39,721 nucleotides of DNA. It comes from Salinarchaeum sp. (lineage in GTDB: Archaea; Halobacteriota; Halobacteria; Halobacteriales; SKNY01). Made by a program: the position numbers and the translations under genes. Under the pieces are notes generated by a model. It ran no database searches. It saw nothing but the letters and a program-made list of their open reading frames with translations, and was not told where the DNA came from. The stretch spans positions 1 to 39,721 of the forward strand of contig SKNY01000012.1 of the NCBI GenBank assembly GCA_007123105.1, given 5' to 3'. Shown in pieces: positions 1,468-39,535 of the stretch; the first letter of the stretch is position 1, and each line of letters opens with the position of its first letter.

Positions 1468-2724
1468 ATGAGAGTCGGCATCGTCGGCGGGGGAATCACG
1501 GGACTCACAGTAACCCATGCACTCCGGGCACAGGACGTCACGGTGAACACGTTCGAAGCGGCCGGCCGACCAGGCGGCGTCATTCGCTCTGAGACGGTCG
1601 ACGGAATGTGTCTCGAGTACGGTCCCCAGCGGATCCGGGCAACGCCGGCTGTCCGCACGCTAATCGACGAACTCGGACTCGCGGATACCGTTCAGGAGGG
1701 CGACCCGGACGCCCCATTGTACGTGTACGCCGACGGCGCGCTCCGAACCGTACCGCGCTCGGTGAAAGCGTTCCTCCGAACGGATTTACTCTCCTGGCGC
1801 GCCAAGCTCCGCCTCCTTCGCGAACCGTTCGTGCCATCCGGTCCGACCGATGGCTCCGCCAAGGAATACTTCGAGGCAAAGTTCGGTGCCGAGGCGTACG
1901 ACCGCCTGCTCGGTCCATTGTTCGGGGGCATTTACGCCTCGGATCCAGCACGGATGCCCGCCCGCCACAGTCTCCAGCGGATCATCTCCCTCGAACACGA
2001 GCACGGCTCGTTGCTTCGGGTCGCACTCGACCGGCTGGGAAGCAACAACGCGACCCCGCCGCCGATCACGTTTGATGGCGGCCTCGAGACCCTCCCGACC
2101 GCGTTGTACAATCGCCACGCAGCACACGTCGAGTTGAACACGCCCGTGTTGGGCGTAACGCCCACAGCGACCGGCGCGTGGGAGCTCGAGACGTCCTGGG
2201 GCAGCACGGTTGTCGACCACGTCGTGCTCACGACGCCGGCGACCGAGACTGCTGAACTGTTGGGCGAGCTTATCGAGGCGCCACTCGAACGGCTCACGTA
2301 CAATTCGCTCGCAATCGTCCATCTCGAGACAGCCGCCCGCTTGGCAGGGTTCGGGTATCAAACCGCCCGATCGTCGCCATTACACACCCGTGGTGTGACC
2401 TGGAACACAGGACTGTTCGACCGCGATGGCCTGGTTACAGCGTTTCTCGGTGGAATGGACGAACCCGACGTACTCGAGTGGACGGACGCTCGACTTGGCT
2501 CCGTGGCCGCTACCGAATTCGAAACGGTCACCGGCCACGATGCCAACGTGCTGGCGGTGACCCGTCTGGCCGACCGGATCCCCGCCTATGACGAATCCTG
2601 GAACGTCCTCCCCTTTCTGTCGCTTCCAGACGGGATTTCGCTCGCAACGAACTATACCGGGCGGCTCGGCGTCCCGAGCCGGATCCGCGAAGCCATCCGA
2701 ATCGCAGAGACCCTCGCCGACTAG
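1468..2724 (+). CDS. hemG: Protoporphyrinogen/coproporphyrinogen oxidase-like FAD-dependent amine oxidase
   Basis: A 418-residue flavoprotein. The N-terminus (MRVGIVGGGITGLTVTHAL) is the Rossmann GxGxxG FAD-binding motif, followed by an acidic residue and the R-P-G-G-V-I-R segment typical of the amine-oxidase/protoporphyrinogen-oxidase superfamily. GPLFGGIYASDPARMPARHS and the C-terminal GISLATNYTGRLGVPSRIREA resemble the conserved HemY/HemG-type blocks. The family removes six electrons from a porphyrinogen to give the porphyrin for haem synthesis. Haloarchaeal homologues are annotated this way, but the substrate (copro- or protoporphyrinogen) is not provable from sequence. An in-frame GTG at 1444 would add eight residues; the ATG directly before the FAD motif is preferred. 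The stop overlaps the stop of the converging DUF5817 gene by 4 bp. Confidence 0.8.
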   Translation: MRVGIVGGGITGLTVTHALRAQDVTVNTFEAAGRPGGVIRSETVDGMCLEYGPQRIRATPAVRTLIDELGLADTVQEGDPDAPLYVYADGALRTVPRSVKAFLRTDLLSWRAKLRLLREPFVPSGPTDGSAKEYFEAKFGAEAYDRLLGPLFGGIYASDPARMPARHSLQRIISLEHEHGSLLRVALDRLGSNNATPPPITFDGGLETLPTALYNRHAAHVELNTPVLGVTPTATGAWELETSWGSTVVDHVVLTTPATETAELLGELIEAPLERLTYNSLAIVHLETAARLAGFGYQTARSSPLHTRGVTWNTGLFDRDGLVTAFLGGMDEPDVLEWTDARLGSVAATEFETVTGHDANVLAVTRLADRIPAYDESWNVLPFLSLPDGISLATNYTGRLGVPSRIREAIRIAETLAD

Positions 2725-3221
2725 ACGACGCGCAGGCCGTCATCGGTACGCACAACCGCCCCATTGTGGATGAGCTCCTCGACAATGGTGGTGACCGTCT
2801 CGGCCGGTACGTCCTCGACCGCCGCCACAACCTCCTCGATTGTCGGTTCCTCGAGGGACACGATCGTTCGTTCGACCCGGGTGGCCCGATCGCTGGGGCT
2901 GGGCGGGGACGCTTCGACGGCCGCGACGATATCGGGGTCGATGCCGTGGGCTTCCAAGACATCCCGGTCGGTCACCAACGGATCAGCGACGTCATCCTCG
3001 AGATCGGCGTAGCCTGGGATGGTCGCTGGATCGTGGCCGTCACGAGCGGCCAACAGTGCGCCGCGGGCCGTCCGTGCCGCCTCGACGGTATCGGTGCGGG
3101 CGAACATCTTCAGTCGGTCCAGGCGATGACGCGTACCACAACCCGGACACCCTGCCGTTTCGCCCGTTCCGTCGTGGACCCAGAAGCCATGACACTCCGA
3201 ACACCCGACGACGACGTACAT
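2721..3221 (-). CDS. DUF5817-type zinc-ribbon and winged-helix protein
   Basis: A 166-residue protein beginning MYVVVGCSECHGFWV. Two CxxC pairs (C7/C10 and the CPGCG pair about 20 residues later) form a zinc ribbon. The central part is helical and acidic. The last 60 residues (RTIVSLEEPTIEEVVAAVED... ending VVRTDDGLRVV) look like a small winged helix. This layout is that of the haloarchaeal DUF5817 family of unknown function, probably a nucleic-acid-binding protein. The longer open frame upstream of 3221 is rejected because it is Arg-rich and the zinc ribbon normally opens these proteins. The gene lies 11 bp downstream of the ICDH start-to-stop unit on the same strand reading order (ICDH stop at 3233), so co-transcription with icd is likely. 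Confidence 0.75.
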   Translation of the reverse strand: MYVVVGCSECHGFWVHDGTGETAGCPGCGTRHRLDRLKMFARTDTVEAARTARGALLAARDGHDPATIPGYADLEDDVADPLVTDRDVLEAHGIDPDIVAAVEASPPSPSDRATRVERTIVSLEEPTIEEVVAAVEDVPAETVTTIVEELIHNGAVVRTDDGLRVV

Positions 3222-3232
3222 GCGCAGTCTTA

Positions 3233-4513
3233 CTACTGATTGGCAGCGAGTTGTTCGATGTGGCCGACGACCTCGTCGGTGAACGTGGTGGTCCCGACGC
3301 GCTCTGCACCCTCGATATTGCGGTGGAGATCGTAGGTGACCCGTCCGGCGCCGATCGCGGCCTCGATGGCATCCTTGACCAGTGCAGCCGCGTCGTACCA
3401 GCCCATATACTCGAACATGAGCGCTCCGGACAGCGTAATGGCACACGGGTTCGCCATATCCTGACCGGCCCGCTTCGGGGCCGACCCGTGGACTGGCTCG
3501 GCGAGACAGCGTCCCTCGCCGAAATTCGCCCCCGGCGGGAGCCCCAGACTCCCCATCTGTGCGCCGGCGGCATCCGAGAGATAATCACCGTTGAGGTTCG
3601 GCATTGCAAGGACGTCGAACTCGTCGGGACGCAACAGCAGCCACTGTAACATCGCGTCGGCGATGCGCTCGTCGACCATGACGGCGCCCTCGGGAACGTC
3701 GATCTCGCCTTCGGCTTCCCAGAGGGAGTTCGGGGCCGCAAAGACCTCCTCGTCGGGGTACTCCTCTTGGGCGACCTCCATACCCCATTCGGAGAACTGT
3801 CCCTCGGTAAACTTCATGATGTTCCCCTTGTGGACGAGCGTCACCTTCTCGCGGTCGTTCTCGAGTGCGTAATCGATTGCTTCACGGACGAGTCGCTTGG
3901 TCCCCTTCTCGGTGATCGGCTTGATCCCGATTCCAACAGGACCGTCGTGGATGATGCCAGTGGCACCCATCTCATCCTCGACGAACGCGCGAACCTGCTC
4001 GACTTCCTGGGTACCGGCTTCCCACTCGATGCCCGCGTAGACGTCCTCGGTATTTTCTCGGAACGTCACGATGTCGAGTAACTCGGGGGCCTTCACCGGG
4101 GAGGGCGTCCCCTCGAGATGGTAGGTTGGCCGGACGTTCGCAAATAGATCGAAATGCTGGCGAAGGGCGACGTTCAGCGACCGAAATCCCGATCCGACGG
4201 GCGTCGTCAGTGGCCCCTTGATTGCGATTCGATATTCGTCAATCGCGCGAAGGGTGTCCTCGGGAAGATGGACGTCCTCCCCGTACCGTTCCTGGGCGGC
4301 CTCGCCCGCGTAAACCCGGAACCAGTTAATCTCCCGGCCGGTCGCCTGTGCGGCGGCCTGGAGGATGGTCTGGGCCGCGGGGCCGACGTCCTCGCCGATG
4401 CCATCGCCGTGAATGATCGGGATGATCGGATCCGACGGAACCTCGAGCGATCCGTCACCGGCGACCGTAACCCGCGATCCGTCGGCTGGAGGATCGATCA
4501 GCTCGTAGCTCAT
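3233..4513 (-). CDS. icd: Isocitrate dehydrogenase, NADP-type
   Basis: A 426-residue enzyme of the TCA cycle that oxidatively decarboxylates isocitrate to 2-oxoglutarate. Visible signatures: PIIPIIHGDGIGEDV near residue 35; the substrate-binding segment GSGFRSLNVALRQHFDLFAN with the phosphoryl-mimicking Ser/Asn/Arg set; the metal-binding block MPNLNGDYLSDAAGAQMGSL; and the C-terminal nucleotide-binding loop HGSAPKRAGQDMANP. Its length matches haloarchaeal ICDH (about 420). I chose the start MSYELIDPP at 4513, which aligns with the characterised Haloferax enzyme beginning MSYDK; an ATG two codons earlier (4519) is possible. It is a single-copy housekeeping gene, upstream of DUF5817 on the minus strand. 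Confidence 0.96.
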   Translation of the reverse strand: MSYELIDPPADGSRVTVAGDGSLEVPSDPIIPIIHGDGIGEDVGPAAQTILQAAAQATGREINWFRVYAGEAAQERYGEDVHLPEDTLRAIDEYRIAIKGPLTTPVGSGFRSLNVALRQHFDLFANVRPTYHLEGTPSPVKAPELLDIVTFRENTEDVYAGIEWEAGTQEVEQVRAFVEDEMGATGIIHDGPVGIGIKPITEKGTKRLVREAIDYALENDREKVTLVHKGNIMKFTEGQFSEWGMEVAQEEYPDEEVFAAPNSLWEAEGEIDVPEGAVMVDERIADAMLQWLLLRPDEFDVLAMPNLNGDYLSDAAGAQMGSLGLPPGANFGEGRCLAEPVHGSAPKRAGQDMANPCAITLSGALMFEYMGWYDAAALVKDAIEAAIGAGRVTYDLHRNIEGAERVGTTTFTDEVVGHIEQLAANQ

Positions 4514-27069: not shown

Positions 27070-29949
27070 TCACTCAAGCTGAACGCCGCCCGCGTCAATC
27101 GAGACCACGTCATCAAACAACGGTTTCAATACGTTAATCTCCTGGTGACCATCGGCCGTCGGATCGACGTGAAAATGTGCAACGGTATCGGCTTCCTGCA
27201 GTTTGCCGAGCAAAATATGGAGAAACCGGAACAAACTTTTGACCGACTGATACTGCAGTGGCACGTCAAGCGAATCAAAACAGAACGTGCGTTCACCGGA
27301 CGCATCTGCCCAGCCATCGAGAATGCCAGTGATTACAATACCGAGTCGGGTCAAGTCGTTGGGATTATTGATCGAGAGTACGTGCACATCATCCTCATAA
27401 CCCGATGGGATCGGTTGTTGACAACCGATCGCGATGATACGGAGATCCGAGACTCGCTCGGCAACTTGACGAATCCGATCCGGCTTAAGTGACCGATATT
27501 GGACTAACATTCCCTGTTCGACGTCCGGCAGGTCAAGACACAGCAAGTCCGTACAGGCGGTGTGCTTGCGGTCGTCCTGTGAATTACAGGTTACAAGCAC
27601 CGAAGTCCCGGCCGCCATCGAAAGGTCGTCCGGTCGGTGGTACTCTCCCGCTAAATCCCATGTCGAATCGTCATCAGTGGACTCTTTGTTGGTGTCGAAA
27701 ACGATGTTCTGGTCCGACGAGGAAACAAGCTCTTCCTCGTCCGTATCGTCTGACTCATCGGATTCGGTTACTTCCGGGACATCCTCAGCCGTGGCTGTGG
27801 TCGCCTCATTTGTCGCTGACTCCCGCTCGTCTGCACCAGTTACCTCGTTAGTAGCAACTGACTCTCCATTTGTATCCGGTTCGTCAACGGTGTCTTTGTC
27901 ACGAGTGAGACGTTCGAGAAGGCGAACGAGTTCTTCCTTTGGAAGATCGGCGAGGCCTGCCATTATCGGCGATGATTCATTGAAGGCTTCCGCCTGGCTA
28001 GTTTCCGATGGCTGGTCGCTCGTCGAACTCGACTCCGGATCCGCTGACGGCAGCTGTTCGTCGTTCGACGATCCGTCAACGTTCGGATCTTCTGGAGAGG
28101 TACCCGCAACTGATTGATCAGATTGGTGTCGATTGATCACACCACGATTTTCCGGCGGCGATCGGGCATTGATTGCTTCTGGTGTCGATTCGGTATTCGG
28201 CTTAGGGGTTGGATTATCAACCGACAACGATGTCGAACCGGACTTAATCTTTGGGGAACCTGTTTCTTCGTCCGTGTCCTTCTTAATAGACGTGGTGACC
28301 GGGTAGACAGCGTCGTTGTCGGTACCACCGACCACATCGTGGGTTTCAGCGGTTCGATGGTCGGGCTGAGGGTCAGAGGAATAGATCCCCCGATCCGTGC
28401 GTCGATCTCTGTATTCATCAACAGATATGTCCGCACCTTCGGTTCGGTTTCGTCCGCTAATTTGGCCCACCGCAGCCATCGCGTCAGTGATCTCATCTTC
28501 GAGTGTTCGCTCTTTCGATGTGATCGGTGGTTCTCGTTCAGCGTTCCCCGTTTCGGTGGCGAAACGCGACTCGGTCGCATAGCGACTTGACCTAACCCCA
28601 ACCGCGTCTTCTGAACGCGCCGGATCCGATTCGTTGTCCGGTCGATTGGCAGCTGGATCGGTCGAAGAATCATCTTTTTCGTTGTCCGGTCGATCGGCAG
28701 CTGGATCGGTCGACGGATCGATGTTTACATCGTCGGCATAGTGACTCGTCCGTGCGAGAAGCTCTTCAACGGTGAAGTTCCCCCCGCCGCCGGCCGAGGA
28801 TAGCTGTGCGTCTGCTTCGACTTGGACGGGTTCATTCGTACCAGAGAGCATTCTACCGGACTTACCTTCTCTGGACACGTCTTTTGTTGCCTCGGCGACC
28901 GCAGCAAGGATCGCCGATCCGGGATCAATATCGTCGGAAGCTTTCTCGTGTGGGATCGATTCGGGATCGTCCGCATCGATCAACGCCAGGAGCTCGGCTG
29001 CCATCTCCTCCGATGATCCAGGCACGTCGAGTGCCGTGGAGCCGCGCATGCCAATTGCCCTGGTGACACGCACCAGATCAGGAGCGTCACCGGAAATTCC
29101 GGTGAGCAGCTCAAGGACAGTTGAGACGAGTGCTGCATCGGCACCCGATGTAGTATCATGCTCGCGAATAGTGTTTGTAGCATCACCAGAACCGGCCTCA
29201 TCGTCGGACTCAAAACGCGGTCCGTTGCCGTTGATGCGTCTGAGGAAGCGAGCATTCATCGTTGCTGCGATCGGGCGATCAACGGAGATTCGAGTAGATG
29301 GTATTGCTGAGTAATGGCCGGACTCATTCTCGCTATCGATTAATTCGATCCCGTTATAGGTCCGCCCGGTGCGAGACGTCGTGCATTCAAGGTTGTCAAA
29401 AATAGTTTCGATCGCTGCACCGACACCATCTGACGCCATCCACGGGTCCGCAATATCCTCTTCACCATCCAATGGAGCAATGGCCTGATCTACGGCTGAC
29501 CCATCATCCCCCGGTGAAAGCTCACCAAGATTGTTGGCGTCCATCGATTCGACCACGTTGGAACTCGATGCCTGTGCTGCCGCCTGGGAGATTCGTTCGG
29601 CGACAAGGTCATAGGAGATATTAGGTAGAGAAGTAGAAATAAAGCCGAGTGCACCCGCGGGAAATACTTCCTGGTCGACCTCATTCGATTCATCCGCTGT
29701 GATGAAAATGAAAGGAACAGTGGGATAGTTCACAGATACGTATTCAAGGAAGTCACTGCGGTCTTCGCCGAGTGTCTTGAATTTACAGAGTACGCAATCG
29801 ACCGGGCACTCCTCCAGAATCGATGCCGCATTCGAAACCGATTCGGCCGTTAGTACGTCGAATCCATCTTCCTCGGCAAGGATTTCCCCGCGATTTACGA
29901 GGGAATCCCGATCGTCGCCAACAAATAGTAGCCTGATACGATCACGCAT
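27070..29949 (-). CDS. Degenerate receiver-domain protein with acidic linker and C-terminal DUF7504 domain
   Basis: A 959-residue protein. Residues 1-125 fold like a response-regulator receiver (IRLLFVGDDRDSLVN, PFIFITADES), but the phosphoacceptor position holds K56 (DCVLCKF) and the usual K-P pair is missing. Residues about 130-755 are low-complexity, Asp/Glu/Ser/Thr-rich and surely disordered, with a 16-residue duplication (see 28631-28713). Residues about 760-955 (GTSVLVTCNSQDDRKHTACT to FDDVVSIDAGGVQLE) match the haloarchaeal DUF7504 / HTR-like domain, a RecA-like fold seen in signalling proteins. The ATG at 29949 is preferred to the GTG at 29952. It is divergent from the DUF5305 operon, suggesting it regulates or senses for it (inference). 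Confidence 0.78.
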   Translation of the reverse strand: MRDRIRLLFVGDDRDSLVNRGEILAEEDGFDVLTAESVSNAASILEECPVDCVLCKFKTLGEDRSDFLEYVSVNYPTVPFIFITADESNEVDQEVFPAGALGFISTSLPNISYDLVAERISQAAAQASSSNVVESMDANNLGELSPGDDGSAVDQAIAPLDGEEDIADPWMASDGVGAAIETIFDNLECTTSRTGRTYNGIELIDSENESGHYSAIPSTRISVDRPIAATMNARFLRRINGNGPRFESDDEAGSGDATNTIREHDTTSGADAALVSTVLELLTGISGDAPDLVRVTRAIGMRGSTALDVPGSSEEMAAELLALIDADDPESIPHEKASDDIDPGSAILAAVAEATKDVSREGKSGRMLSGTNEPVQVEADAQLSSAGGGGNFTVEELLARTSHYADDVNIDPSTDPAADRPDNEKDDSSTDPAANRPDNESDPARSEDAVGVRSSRYATESRFATETGNAEREPPITSKERTLEDEITDAMAAVGQISGRNRTEGADISVDEYRDRRTDRGIYSSDPQPDHRTAETHDVVGGTDNDAVYPVTTSIKKDTDEETGSPKIKSGSTSLSVDNPTPKPNTESTPEAINARSPPENRGVINRHQSDQSVAGTSPEDPNVDGSSNDEQLPSADPESSSTSDQPSETSQAEAFNESSPIMAGLADLPKEELVRLLERLTRDKDTVDEPDTNGESVATNEVTGADERESATNEATTATAEDVPEVTESDESDDTDEEELVSSSDQNIVFDTNKESTDDDSTWDLAGEYHRPDDLSMAAGTSVLVTCNSQDDRKHTACTDLLCLDLPDVEQGMLVQYRSLKPDRIRQVAERVSDLRIIAIGCQQPIPSGYEDDVHVLSINNPNDLTRLGIVITGILDGWADASGERTFCFDSLDVPLQYQSVKSLFRFLHILLGKLQEADTVAHFHVDPTADGHQEINVLKPLFDDVVSIDAGGVQLE
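28631..28713 (-). repeat. 48-bp tandem duplication inside the acidic linker
   Basis: Two near-identical copies with a 48-bp period (starting near 28631 and 28679) share a TTGTCCGGTCGAT...GCAGCTGGATCGGTCGA core. In protein they read STDPAADRPDNEKDD and STDPAANRPDNESDP. It is an in-frame 16-codon duplication, typical of slippage in a disordered, acidic linker. Confidence 0.85.
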
Positions 29950-30113
29950 CACAATAACTCCATTCTAACGATACCTCAGGTTCACAGATGTGTTATGTAC
30001 TAAATAAGGGTACGGTTCCACTCAGTAAGGCGTAGTTATGAAGTGTTAACATCCAAACAGGAGCATCATATTCCGGTGGCCATCATCACTGTCATCGGCT
30101 GCACGGCGGTAGG

Positions 30114-30143
30114 CTTAATGTAACCACAACCAGATTGTGGTTA
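30114..30143 (+). promoter_or_regulatory. TATA-like box followed by perfect 9-bp inverted repeat
   Basis: The inverted repeat is TAACCACAA (30121-30129), spacer CCAGA, TTGTGGTTA (30135-30143), an exact 9+5+9 palindrome. It directly follows a TATA-like CTTAATG (30114-30120). It lies between the divergent DUF7504 gene (start 29949) and the DUF5305 operon (start 30248). A repressor dimer bound here would cover the expected start of a plus-strand transcript with a leader of about 100 nt. The 295-bp intergenic region has no ORF. A TTATTTAG-like box on the minus strand near 30003-30010 could serve the DUF7504 gene. Confidence 0.55.
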
Positions 30144-30247: not shown

Positions 30248-31378
30248 ATGGCGGAGATTGACCAGTCCCTTCAGTTACGATCGACCCTCAATACGTGGTG
30301 GCTCGTGATCACCATTGGATTAGTGATCGCAGCGCTCGTCCTCGGCTGGTGGGCCTACCAGATCAACATGGAACCGCAGATCGAAGAGGACCAGGTGTTG
30401 GTCGAAGAGTGGAGTGAGGAGACGGGGTATGAACATCGGGGAGAAATCATCCGTGATTCGATTCCGTTCGAGATCGGGGAAATCGTCGAGAATCGTCCAC
30501 TGTACTATACGAACCTAACTGAAGAGCTCGACGGCACCTACTGGTATGAATTCAGTGGGGAAGATGGCGACGTCACGGCCAGCACGGATGTTGCCCTTCT
30601 CGTCCGGAGCGGTGAACTGGAAGACCAAGAGGTCGTCGAGGCGTTTTGGGAAGTCGCTGAACCGCTCGAATCGAGCGATGAGACGATCGGAACAAACGAG
30701 CGACACAAGGTAGAGTACACTGTCGATATCATCGACGTGCTCGAGCTGATCAGTACGGTGGAGCGACAAGTCGGTGCGACCGAAGGACTCGTCGATGTGC
30801 GAGTGCGGGCAGTTACCAACATCGAAGGAGAAATCGGCGGCGAGACCATCAACACAACCCATCAGTCCGATAAACTGATTGTCGTGAATCCCGCGACATT
30901 TAGAGTAAATGATGTTAGAGGAATCGACGAACGCCATCAAGAGTTTCAGACTGTCGAGACCATCGTGGATCCCTCGCCAATGACGGCTTACGGGTCGATT
31001 CTGTTGTTCGTGTTAGCAATTGTTGGTGTGATTTCACTTGTAGTCGCCAGGTCTACCGACTATCTCGAACTCAGCAAAGAAGAACAGAGGCTACTCAAAC
31101 TCGCCCGCGACCGGGAACGGTTTTCGGAATGGATTTCGACGGGGAGCTTTCCGGCCGAACAAGAATACGAGCAAACGGTGTTGGTCGACGACCTCGAGGG
31201 GCTGGTTGATATTGCGATTGACACGAATAAGCGCGTCATCGAAGATCCTCAACTCGGCGTCAGTACAGTGCTCGATGATAACTACATCTACTTGTACATC
31301 CGTCCGGATTCGCCGGCCCGGGACTGGCTGATTAATTATGCCGATACGACACTGAACGAGTTTAAGCGAGAGTTCTGA
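30248..31378 (+). CDS. DUF5305 family membrane protein
   Basis: A 376-residue protein with a short cytoplasmic N-terminus, a helix at 17-38 (WWLVITIGLVIAALVLGWW), a beta-rich outer domain (39-245) and a second helix at 247-268 (YGSILLFVLAIVGVISLVVA). The C-terminal 105 residues are a charged cytoplasmic alpha/beta domain. DUF5305 proteins are haloarchaeal and often sit beside signal-peptidase-like genes. I read it as a scaffold or accessory factor for the secreted proteins downstream; the biochemical role is unknown. The ATG at 30248 is chosen over a TTG three codons earlier. It heads a four-gene plus-strand operon (gaps of 27, 18 and 24 bp). Confidence 0.85.
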   Translation: MAEIDQSLQLRSTLNTWWLVITIGLVIAALVLGWWAYQINMEPQIEEDQVLVEEWSEETGYEHRGEIIRDSIPFEIGEIVENRPLYYTNLTEELDGTYWYEFSGEDGDVTASTDVALLVRSGELEDQEVVEAFWEVAEPLESSDETIGTNERHKVEYTVDIIDVLELISTVERQVGATEGLVDVRVRAVTNIEGEIGGETINTTHQSDKLIVVNPATFRVNDVRGIDERHQEFQTVETIVDPSPMTAYGSILLFVLAIVGVISLVVARSTDYLELSKEEQRLLKLARDRERFSEWISTGSFPAEQEYEQTVLVDDLEGLVDIAIDTNKRVIEDPQLGVSTVLDDNYIYLYIRPDSPARDWLINYADTTLNEFKREF

Positions 31379-31405
31379 GGTTGATGCAGGAATGGTGAAC
31401 CTAGG

Positions 31406-32848
31406 ATGAAACCGAGTGATGCCATCCAGTATGCACTCGCAGGAGCGTTCATCGGCCTCGTTCTCTTATTACTATTGAGTCAGCTGATCGGCCAACCAAT
31501 GATTGTCTTTGTCGAAACGGGAAGTATGGCCCCCACACTCGAACCAAATGACGGATATATTGCAGTACCAGCGATCTTTGCCGGCGAGATCAATGAAGGA
31601 GACGTCATCCTGTTCATGTCCCAGGATCTTGGAGGTGGTGAACTCACGACCCACCGTGTCGTCGGTCAAACTGACGAAGGCTACATCACCCAAGGGGACG
31701 CGAATCCATTCACTGATCAGGACGGTGCTGAACCGCCGATATCAGACGGTCAAATCAAAGCCGTCGCGATCACTGTTGGGGGTGACATCATTGTCATCCC
31801 CGGTCTCGGAGCAAGCATCACCGCAATCACGGCGGTTGTCGAATCGGCTGCGGTATCGGTGTTCGAACCAATCGGCATCGATCCACCGGATGTGTCGACG
31901 TTGTCGATGGCGATTCTCACGGTGGGATTGATCCTCTTTGTCTTTAGTTCGGCACGGCAGGGAACGGACAAACGTGCCAGAGGTGGATCAGGACGGGGGC
32001 TGCTCGGCAATGCCTTCGTCGTAATCGTGATTTTAACACTCGTCGTGATCATCCCACTTAACTTTTCGATGCTGTTACCTTCGGGGGTCTATCAGTACGA
32101 AGTGCTGAGTTCGACGTCACCGACGGATGACGAACAAGTCATTCAGGCAGGAAGCTCCGGAGAGGTGACGTACATGATGCGTAACAGTGGACACCTCCCG
32201 GTGATAAGTTTCATAGAGCCCGCGAGCGCAGGGGTTGAGATTCACGAGCACGAACACTACGTACCGAGACGATCGTCGGTCAATACATCGATTACGATGC
32301 ATGCACCGGAGGAGACGGGCGTCCATCTCCGGTTCGTCCGAGAATATCGATACCTGGTCGTGTTACCGCCATCCCTTATCGCGAGTCTGCACGCAATTCA
32401 CCCGATCGTTGCGATAGGGGCTATTAATTTATTCGTGGCAGCGTTGGTCGTCGTGATATCCATCTCCACGATCGGAACGGATCGACTGCGTTTGCGCAGC
32501 CGCAGTCGAGAACTTCCGATCGAGGACACGATCCGCCGTCATTTGCCAATGGTCATACACAGCGATCATCGGCCGGCCTCAATGAGCACATCGACAGGCA
32601 ATCAACCGTTGCATTGGCCCCAGGGTCAAACGAAAATCCGTGCAACCGACAATAATCAATCACTGTCGGGAGCTGAACTCATTCGCCTGCATCAACAGTT
32701 GCAAGAGCCGCCGACTGCCGTTGGGCTTGAAGCCGATCAGTGGACACCGACAGTGCTTCGGCGGTATCTCGCCCGCGAGTACGGCCACCAGTACACGACG
32801 TCGGAGTGTCGAACGTTACTCCGGCGTTCGGACGTTCCCGTCGATTAA
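31406..32848 (+). CDS. Archaeal signal peptidase I (S26B) with C-terminal IS630-like winged HTH
   Basis: A 480-residue membrane protease fused to a DNA-binding-like domain. TM1 is 8-29. The S26B site has nucleophile S40 (FVETGSMAPTL), H83 (LTTHRVVGQTD) and acidic D98/D104/D106 (TQGDANPFTDQDGAEP), the Ser-His-Asp type of archaeal and ER enzymes. Further helices are at 166-183, 203-224 and 331-357, separated by a basic cytoplasmic loop (TDKRARGG) and an outer beta domain (225-330). The R-rich segment RLRLRSRSRE at 360-369 puts the tail in the cytoplasm. Residues 419-480 (LSGAELIRLHQQLQEPPTAV, DQWTPTVLRRYLAREYG, TTSECRTLLRRSDV) resemble the winged helix of haloarchaeal IS630-type transposases. 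It probably processes the DUF1102-like proteins downstream. Confidence 0.85.
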   Translation: MKPSDAIQYALAGAFIGLVLLLLLSQLIGQPMIVFVETGSMAPTLEPNDGYIAVPAIFAGEINEGDVILFMSQDLGGGELTTHRVVGQTDEGYITQGDANPFTDQDGAEPPISDGQIKAVAITVGGDIIVIPGLGASITAITAVVESAAVSVFEPIGIDPPDVSTLSMAILTVGLILFVFSSARQGTDKRARGGSGRGLLGNAFVVIVILTLVVIIPLNFSMLLPSGVYQYEVLSSTSPTDDEQVIQAGSSGEVTYMMRNSGHLPVISFIEPASAGVEIHEHEHYVPRRSSVNTSITMHAPEETGVHLRFVREYRYLVVLPPSLIASLHAIHPIVAIGAINLFVAALVVVISISTIGTDRLRLRSRSRELPIEDTIRRHLPMVIHSDHRPASMSTSTGNQPLHWPQGQTKIRATDNNQSLSGAELIRLHQQLQEPPTAVGLEADQWTPTVLRRYLAREYGHQYTTSECRTLLRRSDVPVD

Positions 32849-32866
32849 CGAGACCATCATGCACAA

Positions 32867-33487
32867 ATGAATAAATGTATTAGCATCGTTGCAGATGTGG
32901 TAAATACCGATGCAGGAGGATCGCGGGTGAGTACGATCATCAGTCCCCGATCTCGCGAAGAAAAAAATACTGTTTTTGCGGTGCTCAGTAGCCATCGTCG
33001 TCGGTACATGCTTCACGCACTACAGAATGCCGGAGGTGAAGCAACGCTGGGTAATCTTGCCGAGCAGGTGGCCGCATGGGAATACGGCAAGTCCGTCGAC
33101 GAGATCACCTCTGTAGAGCGCAAGCGAGTGTATACTTCGTTGCAACAACATCACCTTGAAAAGTTAGAATCCGCGGGATTGATCGAAGTCGAGCACGATC
33201 GGATTACAACTACCGAACGGGGGGACAACATGCGAGTTTATCTCGAAGTCGTCTCCGAAGAGAACATCCCGTGGTCGCTGTATTACCTCATGTTATCTAT
33301 CATCGGCGGCTTTTCCCTGCTGATCATGTACCTTGGCTGGTTTCCGGAATCGTGGTTGGTAGGGATCTCGGCACTCTTTGTCGTTGTATTATTGATTTCG
33401 GCGACGGTGCATTTACTCGAGAATCGACAGATGAGATTCGGTTCGAGTACCGCCCCACCGGATGCAGAAGCTCCTCGAACTGAATGA
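32867..33487 (+). CDS. Membrane-anchored winged-helix protein (DUF7344-like)
   Basis: A 206-residue protein. Residues 34-128 form a winged helix (VFAVLSSHRRRYMLHALQNA, VERKRVYTSLQQHHLEKLES, GLIEVEHDRITTTERGD), characteristic of the haloarchaeal DUF7344 regulators. Two helices follow at 137-157 and 162-183, so the DNA-binding head is held at the membrane. A GTG at 32927 could be the true start, which would drop 20 poorly conserved residues. It is the third gene of the DUF5305 operon. A local transcriptional regulator of the fibre genes is a reasonable inference. Confidence 0.82.
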   Translation: MNKCISIVADVVNTDAGGSRVSTIISPRSREEKNTVFAVLSSHRRRYMLHALQNAGGEATLGNLAEQVAAWEYGKSVDEITSVERKRVYTSLQQHHLEKLESAGLIEVEHDRITTTERGDNMRVYLEVVSEENIPWSLYYLMLSIIGGFSLLIMYLGWFPESWLVGISALFVVVLLISATVHLLENRQMRFGSSTAPPDAEAPRTE

Positions 33488-33511
33488 AGTCCCGAACATG
33501 AAAACTGTAAA

Positions 33512-33982
33512 ATGAGAGTGTCAGCAGCACAATTAGACCGCCGAACAGTGATTGTGGTCGCCGGTCTGGTGATGGGAGCCGGATGCCTCGGTGACGGCGG
33601 TGGTGGCTTTGATCGAACCGGTGACGATCACGACGATACCGTTGAAAACGATAACTACGGTGGCCTACCTCATGAACTCGAAGCGCTCCGTGACCAGTTC
33701 GAACAACGTGGATTGCAGGTCATCGACGTAGATCATGCTGAGAAGATTGTCCTCAAGGTACAGACCAGCGGTGACATCAACGAGGACATCCGCGAAGCGT
33801 CCGGCGCCTACGCCTCGGTGGTCGGACAACTCGAACAAGATCTTCATGTTCGGATAGAAGACCGCGGACTCCATCAGGAGAGCTTCGAAATCAGGCGTGA
33901 CTGGGCAGTAGCCTTCATCGAGGGCCGGATCGAAGATGAGGAATACATTACTCGAATTAACGACACAAGAACAAATCGGTAA
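33512..33982 (+). CDS. Secreted lipoprotein, unrecognised
   Basis: A 156-residue protein with a signal sequence ending in a lipobox: DRRTVIVVAGLVMGAGC, with Cys25 as the lipidation site, and twin Arg at 10-11. The linker after it is Gly/Asp-rich (GDGGGGFDRTGDDHDDTVEN). The mature domain (about 55-156) is a compact alpha/beta module (LEALRDQFEQRGLQVIDVDH, EKIVLKVQTSGDINEDIREA). No family is recognised. As the last gene of the operon it may be the surface anchor or assembly chaperone for the secreted proteins that follow (inference). Confidence 0.75.
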   Translation: MRVSAAQLDRRTVIVVAGLVMGAGCLGDGGGGFDRTGDDHDDTVENDNYGGLPHELEALRDQFEQRGLQVIDVDHAEKIVLKVQTSGDINEDIREASGAYASVVGQLEQDLHVRIEDRGLHQESFEIRRDWAVAFIEGRIEDEEYITRINDTRTNR

Positions 33983-34064
33983 GCAGTCGTAGAGTTTCCA
34001 TTCAGAAGCGGGTAGAGAGAGACCAAGACTCGCAGGATGGCACTGCGAGAATGAATTCTGGCGG

Positions 34065-34072
34065 CTTAATAC
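34065..34072 (+). promoter_or_regulatory. TATA-like box before first DUF1102-like gene
   Basis: CTTAATAC centred about 33 nt before the ATG at 34102, at a spacing that fits a leaderless or nearly leaderless haloarchaeal transcript. It suggests the secreted-protein genes can be transcribed separately from the upstream operon. Confidence 0.45.
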
Positions 34073-34101
34073 AATGACCACTAGGTGCCGTATCTTTGCT
34101 A

Positions 34102-34722
34102 ATGGCACTAACTCGTCGAAACACGATCGTTGGCCTGGGAGCACTTGCCGCTGGCGCCGGCGTCATCGGTGGCACCGGTGCGTTCACCGCAGTTGAAGCC
34201 GAGCGGGAGGTCAATCTCCAAGCAGCCGGAGACAGTGGCGCCTTGATCGCGATGGCCGTCATTAGCGACACGCTCAATGGTCAGGGGGAGAATGATGATG
34301 TAATCTCGATTAACGTCGATAATCTGAATCTCCGCGCCGTAACTCGATTCCAGCCTGCCCTCGTCGTTGGAAATAACGGTGACAATACGGTTGAGATCGA
34401 CATCCTTGCTACCGGTGGTACTACTTCGATCCTTGATGCAGGTCACGTGATCGATTTTAGTGTACACAGCGAGGACGATGACGCTTTAGCGAGTGATCTC
34501 GATGGCGCATTGAGTGTCGTTGATAATGCGGATGCGCTCGGTTCCGGTGAGGCAGTTGTATTCGATCTCGCGGTGGACTTCCGGGATCCTACTCCAGTGG
34601 ACGACGGTTTCGAGGGGTTTCCAGTTGAGAGCACAACAGACGCTGAAGCAGCCCTCAATGACATTCTTAGCGGAGATGGGGACGGTTCGATCATCGTCGA
34701 AGCAACCGCCGTGGACAACTAG
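34102..34722 (+). CDS. DUF1102/TasA-like secreted protein 1
   Basis: A 206-residue secreted protein. The N-terminus is MALTRRNTIVGLGALAAGAG, a twin-arginine-like signal, then VIGGTGAFTAVEAEREVNLQ, where the G-A-F-x-x-V-x-A-x-R motif marks the start of the mature domain. The rest is an acidic beta-sandwich (VGNNGDNTVEIDILATGG). The haloarchaeal DUF1102 family shares this pattern and is similar in layout to SipW-processed TasA/camelysin proteins. It is the first of five paralogues in the window. The start at 34102 is chosen over a TTG two codons earlier because it follows the TATA box at the right distance. Confidence 0.8.
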   Translation: MALTRRNTIVGLGALAAGAGVIGGTGAFTAVEAEREVNLQAAGDSGALIAMAVISDTLNGQGENDDVISINVDNLNLRAVTRFQPALVVGNNGDNTVEIDILATGGTTSILDAGHVIDFSVHSEDDDALASDLDGALSVVDNADALGSGEAVVFDLAVDFRDPTPVDDGFEGFPVESTTDAEAALNDILSGDGDGSIIVEATAVDN

Positions 34723-35053
34723 TAACACGGTTCTTACTGTGATTAATGCCCGATGGAACAAGCAATGATCTGCCCTTGGATCGGAAGAATTCGGAGTAGG
34801 ATGCGTTCTGCTATGCCTCATGGATGTCAGCGCTACACTTGGCGGGAGGGTAGCGTGGCATCCGATGTAGGTTGTTATTGCACACAGACCATGTGCCAGT
34901 GCGGCCGTTACATCCGGCGTGGACCTGCTTGTGATCGTCGGGGACCGATTCAGGCACTGCCTGACCGCTTCGACGCGGGTTCTGGCACTCCGATCGCCGT
35001 CGTCTGGCACAGCAATACAAAGAACCTAAAGATGGTATAATCATCTGTAAACC
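34723..35053. other. 331-bp intergenic stretch without a supported gene
   Basis: Between the first and second DUF1102-like genes. Frames here are Arg/Cys-rich and unlike haloarchaeal proteins. A weak TATA-like CCTAAAG lies about 28 bp before the next ATG (35054), so this may carry the promoter of the second paralogue. I see no palindrome of note. Confidence 0.4.
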
Positions 35054-35626
35054 ATGAACCTCACCCGCCGGAACACGATTGTGGGACTCGGAGTACTCGC
35101 CGGAGGAGCAGGCGTGATCGGCGGCACTGGGGCATTCGACGCCGTGGAGGCACAACGCAACTTCGAGGTGAGCGTTGCTGGCGACGCCGGTGGGCTGCTC
35201 GGCCTGGTTGCCGAAAATGACGCGATTACGGAAACAGAGGACGGTGGAGCAGGAGGCAATCCCGTGATTGGATTCGTCCTACAGGATGGCGCCGTCAACG
35301 AAGACGCAGTCACCGAGTTCTTCACGGTGTTCACCGTGACTAACAACGGCTCCCAAGACGGGGTGGAGGTGTCGATCGACACCGGAGACGTCGACGGGGT
35401 GACTTTCCCCGTTCCACAAACTCCTGCGCGAGAACCAAGCGGCACGGATTCGAACGTGAACGCTTCAGTTGGTGGTAATAGTATCACCCTCAACGATGGG
35501 ATCGTACTCGACAGCGGACAGACGGCTGTGGTGGACCTTATGATCGACACGACTGAAGCCGGTGGCTACGATGATCCGGACGGTGCTACGTTTACGATTA
35601 CTGCTCGGTCCCCTGACGCCCAGTAG
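35054..35626 (+). CDS. DUF1102/TasA-like secreted protein 2
   Basis: A 190-residue paralogue of the 34102 protein, with an almost identical leader (NLTRRNTIVGLGVLAGGAGV then IGGTGAFDAVEAQRNFEVSV). The mature part is an acidic beta-sandwich with FTVTNNGSQDGVEVSIDTGD and the C-terminal GATFTITARSPDAQ. The near-identical leaders suggest a recent duplication, while the mature domains have diverged. The stop shares a base with the GTG preceding the next start (TAGTGATG), so the third paralogue is coupled. Confidence 0.82.
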   Translation: MNLTRRNTIVGLGVLAGGAGVIGGTGAFDAVEAQRNFEVSVAGDAGGLLGLVAENDAITETEDGGAGGNPVIGFVLQDGAVNEDAVTEFFTVFTVTNNGSQDGVEVSIDTGDVDGVTFPVPQTPAREPSGTDSNVNASVGGNSITLNDGIVLDSGQTAVVDLMIDTTEAGGYDDPDGATFTITARSPDAQ

Positions 35627-35628
35627 TG

Positions 35629-36132
35629 ATGTATTTCACTCGACGGCAGCTCGTGGTCGGCGGCGCAATCCTCGGCTCGGGAGCGGGGCTCATCACTGCT
35701 ACCGGCGCGTTCGATTCAGTTGATGCTGATCGCGAGATTACCGTTGAATTTGCCGACGACGTGGACGCAATCCTCGGAATGGGTGCAGTACCTGATGATG
35801 ATCGCGATTACGTCCGCGTGGAAACCGGGACGGACGGAACGATTGCCATCAAAATCGATCGTATCAACCGCAACGCGCGAACGATAGTGGACCGACTTGT
35901 GGCATTTACCAACAATGGGACGCGAACCGTAGAGGAACTAGCCGTATCGTTGATCGATGACGAATCGCAGAATGCATCACTCAAAATTCACGACGATCTC
36001 GCTGGCGTCAGTATTGATCCCGGAGAAACGGTCGTGGGACTCGGGTTTACAATCAATACATTGACAACAGATGGCCATATCGGTTCGCCAGCAATCGATG
36101 CACGCATCCAAATCAGTACGGTGACCGGATGA
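35629..36132 (+). CDS. DUF1102/TasA-like secreted protein 3
   Basis: A 167-residue paralogue opening MYFTRRQLVVGGAILGSGAG and TGAFDSVDADREITVEFADD. The family block INRNARTIVDRLVAFTNNGT is the conserved beta-strand pair with the N-x-N-A-R-T motif, and SIDPGETVVGLGFTINTLTT the closing strands. This is the most typical member of the family in the window. It starts 2 bp after the previous stop, so translation is probably coupled. Confidence 0.82.
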   Translation: MYFTRRQLVVGGAILGSGAGLITATGAFDSVDADREITVEFADDVDAILGMGAVPDDDRDYVRVETGTDGTIAIKIDRINRNARTIVDRLVAFTNNGTRTVEELAVSLIDDESQNASLKIHDDLAGVSIDPGETVVGLGFTINTLTTDGHIGSPAIDARIQISTVTG

Positions 36133-36186
36133 AAACGCTATCCCCGTCACAAACGACTATCGGGCGACCCGTGGAGTCATAACATC

Positions 36187-37182
36187 ATGCCAGAAATGCG
36201 TCGGCGGAACACACTCATCGGGCTTGGTACCATCGTGTTTGGTGCGTCAGGCTTCATTGCCAGCGGCGCATTCGGGATCGGTTCAGAAGGATCTAGGGGC
36301 GGTAACTGGATCCAAGTCGCCGCAGTCGATTTGACCACGGAGACGGGCGACGATGCAGCTGATGCGGATGGGATCGATATAGACCCGGACGAGACCCCGG
36401 ACTACCATGTACTCACAGCGAACAGCATCGGACGTGGTGACATTGTCGTGTCACCCACTGCTGACGGGTCAACCCACGGCAATTCGCATGCTTATACCCC
36501 CGGTCAAGAGGTTACGCTCTCGGCAGAACCAGCTGCTGGGTCCGACTTCATCGAGTGGCGCGGTGATCTCGGCGAGGAGACGGATCCGGAAGCCACGGAG
36601 GTCTCCGTGGTCATGGACACCGACCGAGAAATCACCGCAGTATTCGAACAGATGGATCTTGCGCGAGCGATCCAGATTATCGCGGTGCCCGAAAACGAAG
36701 GAAACTTCATTGGGGCCGGTGTGGTCCCTTGGTCGGGCCAGATGACGGCGTCGGACATTATCGCCAGTGATGACGACGGGAAAATGACCGGGTTCCAAGT
36801 GGATGGGGCGAACAGAAACGCGATCTCGCGTATCGGGTTTGTCAATGACGGGCGCCCGGTCGATCGGTTCGCCTTTCTGGTGGTTAATGGGGGCAATCCT
36901 GACATGCCGGGTGAAGGAGGTAACTCAGTCGAAATCGTCGCACGGCTTTTAGCCGACGATGGCCAGGACGTGGGTCAATCAGAGCAGATCCGGATCCCCT
37001 ATCGGATCGTTACACCGGGTGGCTCAACGGTTGGTGAGGGAAGCGACCTCCTCGTCGACACCGTAACTCTCTCCGTTGGTCATGTGACCGAGACAGCGAT
37101 CGAAATCGATGCACGGGAAGGCACGGATCAGGTTGGGGCAGCCCGACGCCTCGAGTTCGGGTATCGGGCAGTGGAGGAGTAA
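36187..37182 (+). CDS. DUF1102/TasA-like secreted protein 4 with inserted InlB-B-type repeat domain
   Basis: A 331-residue paralogue. Leader: MPEMRRRNTLIGLGTIVFGA then SGFIASGAFGIG. Residues about 78-155 are an insertion (GDIVVSPTADGSTHGNSHAY, GQEVTLSAEPAAGSDFIEWR, ITAVFE) with the features of the divergent InlB B-repeat / bacterial repeat domain (PF18998-like): G-x-x-V-x-L-x-A-x-P-x-x-G-x-x-F-x-x-W and the closing I-T-A-V-F. The family fold then resumes (VDGANRNAISRIGFVNDGRP). Such repeats act in adhesion or surface display elsewhere. It follows the previous gene by 54 bp and is followed by the next after 1 bp. Confidence 0.8.
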   Translation: MPEMRRRNTLIGLGTIVFGASGFIASGAFGIGSEGSRGGNWIQVAAVDLTTETGDDAADADGIDIDPDETPDYHVLTANSIGRGDIVVSPTADGSTHGNSHAYTPGQEVTLSAEPAAGSDFIEWRGDLGEETDPEATEVSVVMDTDREITAVFEQMDLARAIQIIAVPENEGNFIGAGVVPWSGQMTASDIIASDDDGKMTGFQVDGANRNAISRIGFVNDGRPVDRFAFLVVNGGNPDMPGEGGNSVEIVARLLADDGQDVGQSEQIRIPYRIVTPGGSTVGEGSDLLVDTVTLSVGHVTETAIEIDAREGTDQVGAARRLEFGYRAVEE

Positions 37183-37183
37183 T

Positions 37184-38173
37184 ATGGTACGGCGCAATGC
37201 TCGCAGGCGAGATGGCGGTGGTAGCTTGAGCCGCAGGACCGCCTTGGCGTTAATCGGTGGTGGTGGATTGCTGGCCGTCGGTGCGTCCGGCGCGTTCGAC
37301 GCGGTATCGGGAAAACGACCGTTCCAAGTAGGGATCGGCGGCGATGACGAAGCGCTGTTGCGGTTGCGTACGACTGAGGCAACGCCGCCCGCCCAGGAGT
37401 CATTCCGTGATAGACAAGTCGAGTTCGACGTCACGGACGGTGACACGGTCAAGTTGATCCGCATCGAAAACTTCGTCGACAACCAAATCACGTTCGACGA
37501 CGTTTCCGTAACGACGACCCACCAGGACCTTTCATTTACTGTCGATCAGCCACCCACGTCGTTGGCATTCGGTGAGCACACGGTGCTCGAAGCGACAGTC
37601 GAGTGTGATGGGGACGTTACGAACGTTCCCTTCACCATCAAAATCAGTGCAACGGGCAGCGTTGGGCGGATATCATTGCGTCGTGAGGCGTTTATGACCT
37701 GTTCGGCGGCAGTGCCACCGGGCGACCCGATCTGTCCGCCGTTCGAGGTGCCGTTTATTCGCGGGGGAGGTAGTCCAGGGGCAACACACGCGTTGGGGGA
37801 TGCACCGCCAGCAGACATGACGACCGAGACGGGGACGGTGTCGGTTGTCAGAACTGCCGAGAACGTCCTCGAGGTTGGCATCGAGATGGATCCGGTAGAC
37901 GGTGAGACGATGGAGGAGTTCCGTGTCGATGTCCAAACGAATCCCAAGGACTTTCCAAACGGCCTTGGCCACTATCACGTGGTTGAATCGTTCGACACGG
38001 CACAGACCAGTACAAACGCGACCATCGATCTCGAAGCTGAACTTGGAGTGGCGGCCGATAAACCGATTTACCTGGCCGTCCACGCGAGCCTTCAAAACGA
38101 TAGTGCATGGGCGAAGGGGCCGTTTCAGGGGCAGGCTTGGAGGATGTACCTCGATGAGTGTGCCAACGAGTGA
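37184..38173 (+). CDS. DUF1102/TasA-like secreted protein 5, large C-terminal extension
   Basis: A 329-residue protein. Leader: RRTALALIGGGGLLAVGASG then AFDAVSGKRPFQVGIG. Residues 30-190 form one beta domain (VKLIRIENFVDNQITFDDVS) that includes the family-like sandwich. A linker follows with a Cys pair region (AFMTCSAAVPPGDPICPPFE). A second domain (about 235-329) has AENVLEVGIEMDPVDGETME and ends AWRMYLDECANE. The C-terminal domain is not recognised and could be the functional tip of a fibre (inference). The start at 37184 is preceded by GGAGGAG, a good ribosome-binding site, and sits 1 bp after the previous stop. Confidence 0.78.
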   Translation: MVRRNARRRDGGGSLSRRTALALIGGGGLLAVGASGAFDAVSGKRPFQVGIGGDDEALLRLRTTEATPPAQESFRDRQVEFDVTDGDTVKLIRIENFVDNQITFDDVSVTTTHQDLSFTVDQPPTSLAFGEHTVLEATVECDGDVTNVPFTIKISATGSVGRISLRREAFMTCSAAVPPGDPICPPFEVPFIRGGGSPGATHALGDAPPADMTTETGTVSVVRTAENVLEVGIEMDPVDGETMEEFRVDVQTNPKDFPNGLGHYHVVESFDTAQTSTNATIDLEAELGVAADKPIYLAVHASLQNDSAWAKGPFQGQAWRMYLDECANE

Positions 38174-38191
38174 CCGTCGTTCCGGTAGTGA

Positions 38192-38347
38192 TTATCGAAA
38201 CTCGTTGATGAGGACCAGAAGACCGAGCACGGAAAGCCCGAGACCGACGCTCTCTTCGATCCCGGTACCGTACCAGATATACCAGCTGCCTACGTCCACT
38301 AACACTAGACCAGTGATTACGATCTGAACCGTTGTTCGAACAGGCAC
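38192..38347 (-). CDS. 51-residue two-helix membrane protein
   Basis: A small GTG-initiated gene reading MPVRTTVQIVITGLVLVDVG, SWYIWYGTGIEESV and GLGLSVLGLLVLINEFR. Two hydrophobic helices are linked by an acidic turn. The composition is plainly coding, and an upstream in-frame TAG limits the N-terminus. A TATA-like ATAAACAAATT on the minus strand (38375-38385) lies about 30 nt before the start, as expected for a leaderless transcript. Its stop faces the end of the last DUF1102-like gene (38173). It could be a membrane partner of the fibre system; function unknown. Confidence 0.65.
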   Translation of the reverse strand: MPVRTTVQIVITGLVLVDVGSWYIWYGTGIEESVGLGLSVLGLLVLINEFR

Positions 38348-38445: not shown

Positions 38446-38736
38446 TCAACACGGGAGCTGATCGATTACATCAGCGTGGTACTCGTCCATGAAAACGAGC
38501 AGTTGCGCCAGCTGTGTACTGGCGATTTCAAGGGAACCACGCCATTCACAATCAATGCGTGCTGGGTGCTTCCGTTCGAATGTATTCAGGGAGGCATACA
38601 CCAACGCCCCCCCCCCCCCAAAAAAAACATCGACGGCATTACACCACAGATCGGGATTGAAGTGGATCTTTGAATAACCGTCGTCATTATTCTGACAAGA
38701 GTTCGAGCTTTCCGGACAACCCAGAGGAGCAATCCA
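38446..38736 (-). pseudogene. Truncated minus-strand reading frame with G13/T8 homopolymer
   Basis: A 96-residue open frame without a usable start codon at its beginning. It reads WIAPLGCPESSNSCQNNDDG, YSKIHFNPDLWCNAVDVFFG, GGGALVYASLNTFERKHPAR, then IDCEWRGSLEIASTQLAQLL and VFMDEYHADVIDQLPC before the stop. The composition is clearly protein-like, especially after YSKIHF. The frame passes through T8G13 (plus-strand C13A8, 38607-38627), which codes Phe-Phe-Gly-Gly-Gly-Gly. It looks like the C-terminal part of a gene whose 5' end is lost or frameshifted; I do not recognise the family. The C13A8 run is a likely site of sequencing or replication slippage. Confidence 0.4.
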
Positions 38737-39049: not shown

Positions 39050-39535
39050 ATGACACAAATTACACGACGGTCAGTGGTACGCGGTGTTGGCGGAACGCTC
39101 GCGATCGGATTCGTAGCCGGCTGTCTCGGAGACGACGACGACAACGGGAACGGAGAGGACGATCCGGAGACCGTCGCCGTCAACTGGGCCAGTCAGGCCG
39201 ACAACTTCGACGATGCGGGGGACATCGAAGATCACACCGGCGAGGACTCGGTGACCGTACTGAACGGCGAACAACCCGGCGCAAACTACGTCTTCGAACC
39301 GGCAGTGATTCGAATCGATGCCGGCACGGAGGTCGTGTGGGAGTGGACGTCGAACAACCACACTGTCGATCTGTTTGCCGGTGAAGGAGCAACCTTGACT
39401 GACTGGGATGACCATGGCTCCGCCGAAGACGAAGGATATGAACATGCTACCACGTTCGACGAACCCGGTGTGGCCCTCTACGAATGCGTCCCACACCGGG
39501 GCCAAGGGCAGAGCGGTGCGGTGATCGTTGAATGA
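39050..39535 (+). CDS. Halocyanin-type blue copper lipoprotein with axial Gln
   Basis: A 161-residue secreted electron carrier. The leader ITRRSVVRGVGGTLAIGFVAGC combines twin Arg (6-7) with a lipobox, lipidated at Cys25. An acidic linker (GDDDDNGNGEDDPE) follows. The plastocyanin/halocyanin domain has copper ligands H104 (SNNHTVDLF), C146 and H149 (YECVPHRGQGQSG). The fourth, axial ligand is normally Met five residues after the second His; here it is Q154. The start MTQITRR at 39050 is preferred to the longer frame. It may pair with the Cys-rich gene 40 bp downstream. Confidence 0.9.
   Translation: MTQITRRSVVRGVGGTLAIGFVAGCLGDDDDNGNGEDDPETVAVNWASQADNFDDAGDIEDHTGEDSVTVLNGEQPGANYVFEPAVIRIDAGTEVVWEWTSNNHTVDLFAGEGATLTDWDDHGSAEDEGYEHATTFDEPGVALYECVPHRGQGQSGAVIVE

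Follow-up and report, generated by a model that had tools for sequence, protein, structure and literature searches.

The window analysed here is the whole of a 39.7-kb contig (SKNY01000012.1) from a haloarchaeal metagenome-assembled genome (MAG) assigned to Salinarchaeum sp., which comprises 1.88 Mb and is 67% complete. Between positions 30248 and 38173 it carries nine genes in one direction, which encode, in order, a DUF5305 membrane protein, an S26B signal peptidase, a DUF7344 protein, a lipoprotein and five secreted proteins, here called E1, E2, E3, E4 and E5. This locus very probably makes Tat-fimbriae (Taf; Tat, twin-arginine translocation) of a divergent subtype, with the export, processing, assembly and regulation proposed below. 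The genes and the domains that lie within them are as follows.

30248..31378, forward strand: DUF5305 membrane protein, two transmembrane (TM) segments by hydropathy, large outside domain (PF17231, 9.8e-48)
31406..32848, forward strand: Taf-type S26B signal peptidase, four TM segments, catalytic Ser40/His83/Asp98-104 placed outside (TIGR02228, 1.3e-12; NF046067 SipW, 9.4e-05)
32651..32845, forward strand: helix-turn-helix (HTH) domain of IS630-OrfA type, cytosolic tail of S26B (HTH_33, 0.00096 alone; E 4.1e-28 to the repeat model)
32867..33487, forward strand: DUF7344 winged-helix protein with a C-terminal two-TM hairpin, candidate operator binder (PF24035, 1.7e-25)
33512..33982, forward strand: Tat-lipobox lipoprotein, conserved in the window's subtype (homologues in loci L222, L223, L224)
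34102..34722, forward strand: E1, TafE-like fibre subunit, Tat leader, predicted cleavage between GA and F (NF052522, 2.4e-24; PDB 9p0a, 4.8e-11; fold match 7ueg_A)
35054..35626, forward strand: E2, TafE-like fibre subunit (NF052522, 2e-18; orthologues in L098, L222, L223, L224)
35629..36132, forward strand: E3, short TafE-like fibre subunit (NF052522, 1.8e-13; PDB 9p0a, 6.1e-07; orthologues in L098, L222)
36187..37182, forward strand: E4, Tat-leader protein with the distinct mature N-terminus F-GS-GS-WIQVA (orthologues in L098, L222, L223, L224)
36445..36651, forward strand: divergent InlB B-repeat inserted in E4 (PF18998, 4.8e-13)
37184..38173, forward strand: E5, TafC-like N-terminus and lineage-specific C-terminal domain, tip candidate (NF052521, 1.3e-15, residues 16-174)

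The first four genes are separated by gaps of 18-27 bp, and E4 and E5 lie one base apart. The initial annotation of this DNA, which was made from the letters and their reading frames, had described four tightly spaced genes for DUF5305, S26B, a membrane winged-helix protein and a lipoprotein, and the profile matches bear this out. It had also described five secreted paralogues with a twin-arginine leader and a G-A-F-x-x-V/A motif, of which the RR-x-x-hydrophobic leader followed by G-A-F is present in all five E proteins, but E4 reads GAFGIG and shows weak kinship (the match of its core to the E1-E3 family by hhalign has probability 50% and E 1.6e-4), and E5 shares its N-terminal part alone with the fibre family. 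A 51-residue open reading frame (ORF) at 38192 on the reverse strand, which had been counted as a further component, was rejected because it has no counterpart in any locus searched with it.

Homology to Tat-fimbriae and the conserved taf module

The Tat-fimbriae ('tafi') of haloarchaea, thin surface fibres with the proteins TafA, TafC and TafE, were described by Galeva et al. (2025, iScience 28:111793, as cited in PMC12687288), and NCBIfam models for them exist, so the novelty that the initial annotation implied does not hold: its fibre reading was right, but the kind of system is already known. Judged by profile matches, the homology of E1-E3 to TafE and of E5 to TafC is clear, while strict orthology is not. 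Of 50 relatives, 48 match TafE. E1, E2 and E3 are each linked by phmmer to the structure PDB 9p0a, named 'Pilin', which a profile built from the 50 relatives reaches at 2e-28, and a Natrinema protein 91% identical to 9p0a is encoded at a locus that also has S26B, DUF5305 and DUF7344.

The AlphaFold model of mature E1 is mostly beta, and its only Foldseek match in the PDB below 0.001 is the AbpA bundling pilus 7ueg_A (E 6.1e-4, probability 0.99), which agrees with the TasA/AbpA type of fold expected in the initial annotation. Archaeal bundling pili are reported to be TasA-like, and TasA to assemble by means of an N-terminal donor strand (PMC9674648). The mature proteins of the family share the conserved start F-[ST]-[ST]-V-[ES]-A-[DE]-R-x-V-x-V-x-V, which by analogy seems to resemble such a donor strand. 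The label 'DUF1102-like', which had been given to the subunits, fits 8 of the 50 relatives, which match PF06510 (best 7.3e-08), and does not fit the window proteins, which do not match it.

The accessory genes point in the same direction. Gene content was counted in 80 named S26B loci, and co-location, like the whole-genome motif counts given below, in 59 related genomes. DUF5305 lies nearby in 78 of the 80 S26B loci, DUF7344 in 68 and a recognisable fibre gene in 66, and a TafE-type gene lies within 10 kb of DUF5305 in 33/45 hits, compared with 0.67 expected; the co-occurrence that the initial annotation had proposed as a check is thus present. In the related genome G020 a canonical cluster (locus L057), in which TafA, TafC and TafE all score over their cut-offs, adjoins DUF5305, S26B and DUF7344 genes. 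Since the canonical cluster has these same accessory genes, the module in the window is the taf module and the window a divergent member. Tat-fimbriae are regularly accompanied by DUF5305, a SipW-type S26B and a DUF7344 winged-helix protein, which together constitute a conserved taf module, and this gives DUF5305 a likely role.

The nearest relatives of the locus, by S26B, belong to Halonotius and allied Haloferacaceae. The window order from DUF5305 to E5 is repeated in L098 and in L222, the latter with eight fibre genes, and in Halonotius it is split, with DUF5305-S26B-DUF7344 at one site and lipoprotein-E1-E2-E4-E5 at another. The lipoprotein is a conserved part of the subtype, because L222 has a homologue in the corresponding position (3.3e-33) and the Halonotius loci L223 and L224 have one with their fibre genes. 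A new finding is the layout itself, which is specific to this clade and combines the conserved lipoprotein with a B-repeat subunit (E4) and a variable-tip subunit (E5). Among the loci compared, L103 lies on a contig labelled 'Mollicutes bacterium' (PULR01000059.1) and is a clear haloarchaeal taf locus; that MAG is probably misassigned.

The two large subunits vary in different ways. The orthologues of E4 contain one B-repeat in the window, five in L222 and none in L098 and L101; the L222 orthologue (697 residues, 1628-3721 of that locus) illustrates a fast turnover of repeats in a surface subunit. In the orthologues of E5 the N-terminal domain is constant and the C-terminus is swapped, with bactofilin-like repeat matches in L223 and L224 and, weakly, in L098, and the C-terminal part of the window's own E5 is a unique domain, for which none of the loci searched yielded a relative. 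Such a pairing of constant base and variable end suits a tip, and E5 is the better tip candidate. E1-E3, being TafE-like, could serve either as major or as adapter subunits; the specific assignment of pilin, adhesin and tip made in the initial annotation remains a guess.

The signal peptidase and its HTH tail

The catalytic residues S40, H83, D98 and D104 of the window's S26B are invariant in the alignment. A second signal peptidase is encoded on another contig of the same genome, so S26B is extra and dedicated. The core of the initial annotation, a dedicated secreted fibre system with a SipW-like peptidase, withstands both of the conditions that it had named for its refutation, through the AbpA match of E1 and the co-occurrence with the peptidase and DUF5305. 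The TM segments of S26B (residues 10-28, 163-181, 198-216 and 334-352, with basic residues inside) give a hydropathy topology that has the single leading segment and inside N-terminus of a SipW/ER-type S26B and that places the C-terminal tail in the cytosol; the protein exceeds the usual length of about 385 residues by some 95.

By sequence comparison, this tail is derived from the transposase protein OrfA of IS630 (HTH_33/HTH_32) and has a single origin. The tail domain corresponds to the C-terminal half of IS630 OrfA ORFs, which occur in many genomes and often in identical multiple copies; in the window's own genome the tail-type HTH domain is found in S26B only. The window's tail scores 19.1 bits, below the Pfam cut-off of 25, and the tails from Halonotius score 37-44 bits, over that cut-off. 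Of 12 repeats, 9 match HTH_33. There is one HTH copy in the window and there are two or three in the Halonotius S26Bs (684-765 residues). The tree groups every tail-bearing S26B into a single clade (support 100/100), whose sole untailed member (L100) is cut by a contig end; most taf S26Bs lack the tail. In the Halonotius genes (L096, 9001-11298; L095, L097, L099) the repeats are joined by acidic linkers, up to 765 residues in all.

The AlphaFold (AF2) model of the tail has four helices and a confidence (pLDDT) of 87. Foldseek with the tail alone (a 65-residue domain) gave no significant match, and an hmmsearch of the tail against the PDB found nothing; the fold therefore rests on the sequence together with the AF2 model, and DNA binding by the tail is predicted from homology. 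It is possible, but doubtful, that in this one haloarchaeal clade the peptidase is also a membrane-tethered DNA-binding regulator, in which one to three captured HTH domains would couple the processing of fibre subunits to the transcription of fibre genes. We know of no other instance of this domain architecture, in which a signal peptidase carries transposase-derived HTH repeats, and the fusion makes a direct coupling of secretion to transcription testable in archaea.

Operator and promoter box of the fibre genes

Two kinds of element were found upstream of the fibre genes in the window.

34056..34076, forward strand: taf promoter box before E1, TTCTGGCGGCTTAATACAATG (motif match)
34949..34965, no strand assigned: operator palindrome TTCAGGCACTGCCTGAC, core 34950-34964, ahead of E2 (single site in its own genome)
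35002..35022, forward strand: taf promoter box before E2, GTCTGGCACAGCAATACAAAG (motif match)

With at most one mismatch, TCAGGCASTGCCTGA has one site in the 1.88-Mb genome, at 34950, before E2. The relatives in the clade carry the palindrome 93-98 bp before fibre genes, with at most three mismatches to the 17-bp form. An operator specific to the HTH-tail clade was considered and rejected, since a relaxed scan found the operator to be general: 36 of 183 fibre upstreams contain the pattern TTCWRG-N5-CYWGAA, as against none of the reversed controls, and the 35 occurrences of the pattern counted across 1.64 Mb of loci are in essence these fibre-upstream sites. The second element, TTCnnGCn5-AATACAAAG, is located closer to the start codon and has nine exact matches in the 59 whole genomes, most of them at taf genes, against zero for the reversed pattern; this whole-genome count is the cleaner test, given that the relatives are non-independent samples and that the same loci served both to derive the motif patterns and to count them. 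Two exact matches of the promoter box (G014:C2:198658 and G015:C61:707) have no fibre match directly downstream in a profile search and may mark unrecognised fibre genes.

Counted from the end of the operator, ATACAA follows after 38-39 or 59-60 bp in the relatives and after 49 bp in the window, so that the steps are about one helical turn. Fibre genes across Halobacteriales thus share an operator spaced in whole helical turns from the ATACAAAG promoter box, which is a new observation, and such spacing is characteristic of a protein that has to be oriented towards the promoter complex. The whole taf regulon thereby gains an operator and a promoter box that can be tested, and it is the peptidase-HTH fusion and this shared, phased operator that are the surprising parts of the system.

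Because loci without the HTH tail also carry the operator, its likely reader is the DUF7344 protein, whose gene is present in 31 of the 33 motif-carrying loci and which is, on this distribution, the most likely candidate. The alternative in which the HTH tail, instead of DUF7344, binds the operator as the principal switch for the clade's fibre genes would fit the cytosolic position of the tail in the topology, the presence of up to three HTH repeats in Halonotius and an operator-like palindrome that lies 88-98 bp before a start codon at every fibre locus of the clade. We regard it as unlikely, since the same operator and box stand at taf loci whose S26B is untailed, so that a common factor must read the operator, and the near-constant presence of the DUF7344 gene tells against it as well; the generality of the operator is the reason for which the tail was dropped as its main reader. 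A little less likely still is the alternative in which Sec exports the subunits, or the housekeeping peptidase cleaves them, and the tailed S26B acts chiefly as a membrane regulator for the locus: the kinship of the tail to HTH domains would suit such a role, but the catalytic residues are invariant, RR motifs are present in all five leaders and most taf S26Bs have no tail.

One further candidate regulator is the divergent neighbour of the cluster.

27073..29952, reverse strand: receiver-domain and DUF7504 protein (PF00072, 2.8e-07; PF24336, 2.5e-34)

A homologue occurs in 17 other taf loci, and the divergent position is kept in L098, L222 and L101. Its receiver and DUF7504 domains are linked by about 650 residues of low-complexity acidic sequence, and L101 has a short version of 371 residues. 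This gene, the cytosolic HTH tail of S26B and the promoter and operator elements had all been missed in the initial annotation. About 105 bp before DUF5305 (30121-30143) lies a perfect 9-bp inverted repeat, TAACCACAA-CCAGA-TTGTGGTTA, which is unique to the window among all loci and is a possible second operator. On the 3' side of the cluster, a long intergenic run of C is directly followed by a run of A (38609-38628), a possible slippage site or assembly flaw, and 39053-39535 encodes a Tat-lipobox protein with the look of a halocyanin-type blue copper protein (an H..C..H pattern near its end).

Weighing of the fibre reading, and known systems

Several points weigh against the assignment of this locus to Tat-fimbriae. 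No window protein exceeds a curated Taf equivalog cut-off among the NCBIfam models: E1, E2 and E3 score 86, 67 and 51 bits with TafE against a cut-off of 155, and E5 scores 57 with TafC against 410. The E1 model is moderate (pLDDT 73), with a TM-score of 0.37 to AbpA, and the match to the camelysin/TasA family PF12389 that the initial annotation had looked to was found neither in the window proteins nor in the 50 relatives. No filament was observed, and further fibre loci may be missing from the incomplete MAG.

The absence of an observed filament, the extra domains in E4 and E5 and the annotation of relatives as DUF1102, of unknown function, would all be compatible with E proteins that remain unpolymerised, as soluble or matrix-bound secreted camelysin-like beta-sandwich proteins that share a leader and a peptidase. 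This is improbable, given the homology to the solved 'Pilin' and to the experimentally described Taf fimbriae and the resemblance of the E1 fold to that of a bundling pilus. Type IV pilins or archaellins, although they are the usual archaeal surface filaments, are counted as refuted by leader type and fold, there being no class III signal peptide and no PilB or PilC among the best-supported neighbouring ORFs, with RR leaders, a predicted cleavage between GA and F and a beta-sandwich fold instead.

In the preferred reading, that of a divergent Tat-fimbria, E1-E5 would fold, fully or in part, in the cytosol and be exported by the Tat translocon by means of their RR leaders, after which the membrane-embedded SipW-type S26B would cleave them before the conserved Phe. 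The freed N-terminal strand, F-x-x-V-x-A-x-R-x-V-x-V, would then insert into the beta-sandwich of the next subunit, as in TasA and AbpA, to build a filament mainly of E1-E3, with E5 (TafC-like N-terminus, variable C-terminus) as a putative cap or tip and E4, with or without B-repeats, as a presumed special or adhesive subunit. DUF5305 and the lipoprotein may be membrane-located factors for assembly or anchoring. The operator, with its inverted TTCWRGC half-sites at whole helical turns from the ATACAAAG box, would switch on the fibre genes, most likely via DUF7344, and the transposase-derived HTH tail of the clade's peptidase may add a second DNA contact.

The system can be compared with five that are already known. 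AbpA is the best fold match of E1 and is a beta-sandwich pilin related to TasA, but the identity is 12%, and AbpA comes from a hyperthermophile with no shared operon shown. The TasA/TapA/SipW system of Bacillus subtilis (PMC9674648) has, like the window, a dedicated SipW/ER-type peptidase, cleavage before Phe, an N-terminal donor strand and a minor partner subunit, the last three of which are predicted here. A regulatory role has also been reported for the SipW of B. subtilis. The window differs in the lack of a PF12389 match, in having Tat rather than Sec leaders and in its regulators; we know of no HTH tail in SipW. The haloarchaeal 'Pilin' of PDB 9p0a is a sequence homologue of E1-E3, but its mature part is longer and it lies outside the HTH-tail clade. 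IS630 OrfA (HTH_33/HTH_32) is related through its C-terminal HTH half, to which the S26B tail is homologous; the tail differs from OrfA in lacking the catalytic part, in not being mobile and in being repeated and fused to a membrane peptidase. Finally, compared with the Tat-fimbriae themselves, named only in 2025 and here tied to the TasA/AbpA fold, the window has subunits that score well under the equivalog cut-offs, additional families (E4 and the lipoprotein), a different gene order and an HTH-tailed S26B, but it shares with them homologous subunits with Tat leaders and the same module of DUF5305, S26B and DUF7344 that accompanies the canonical cluster in L057.

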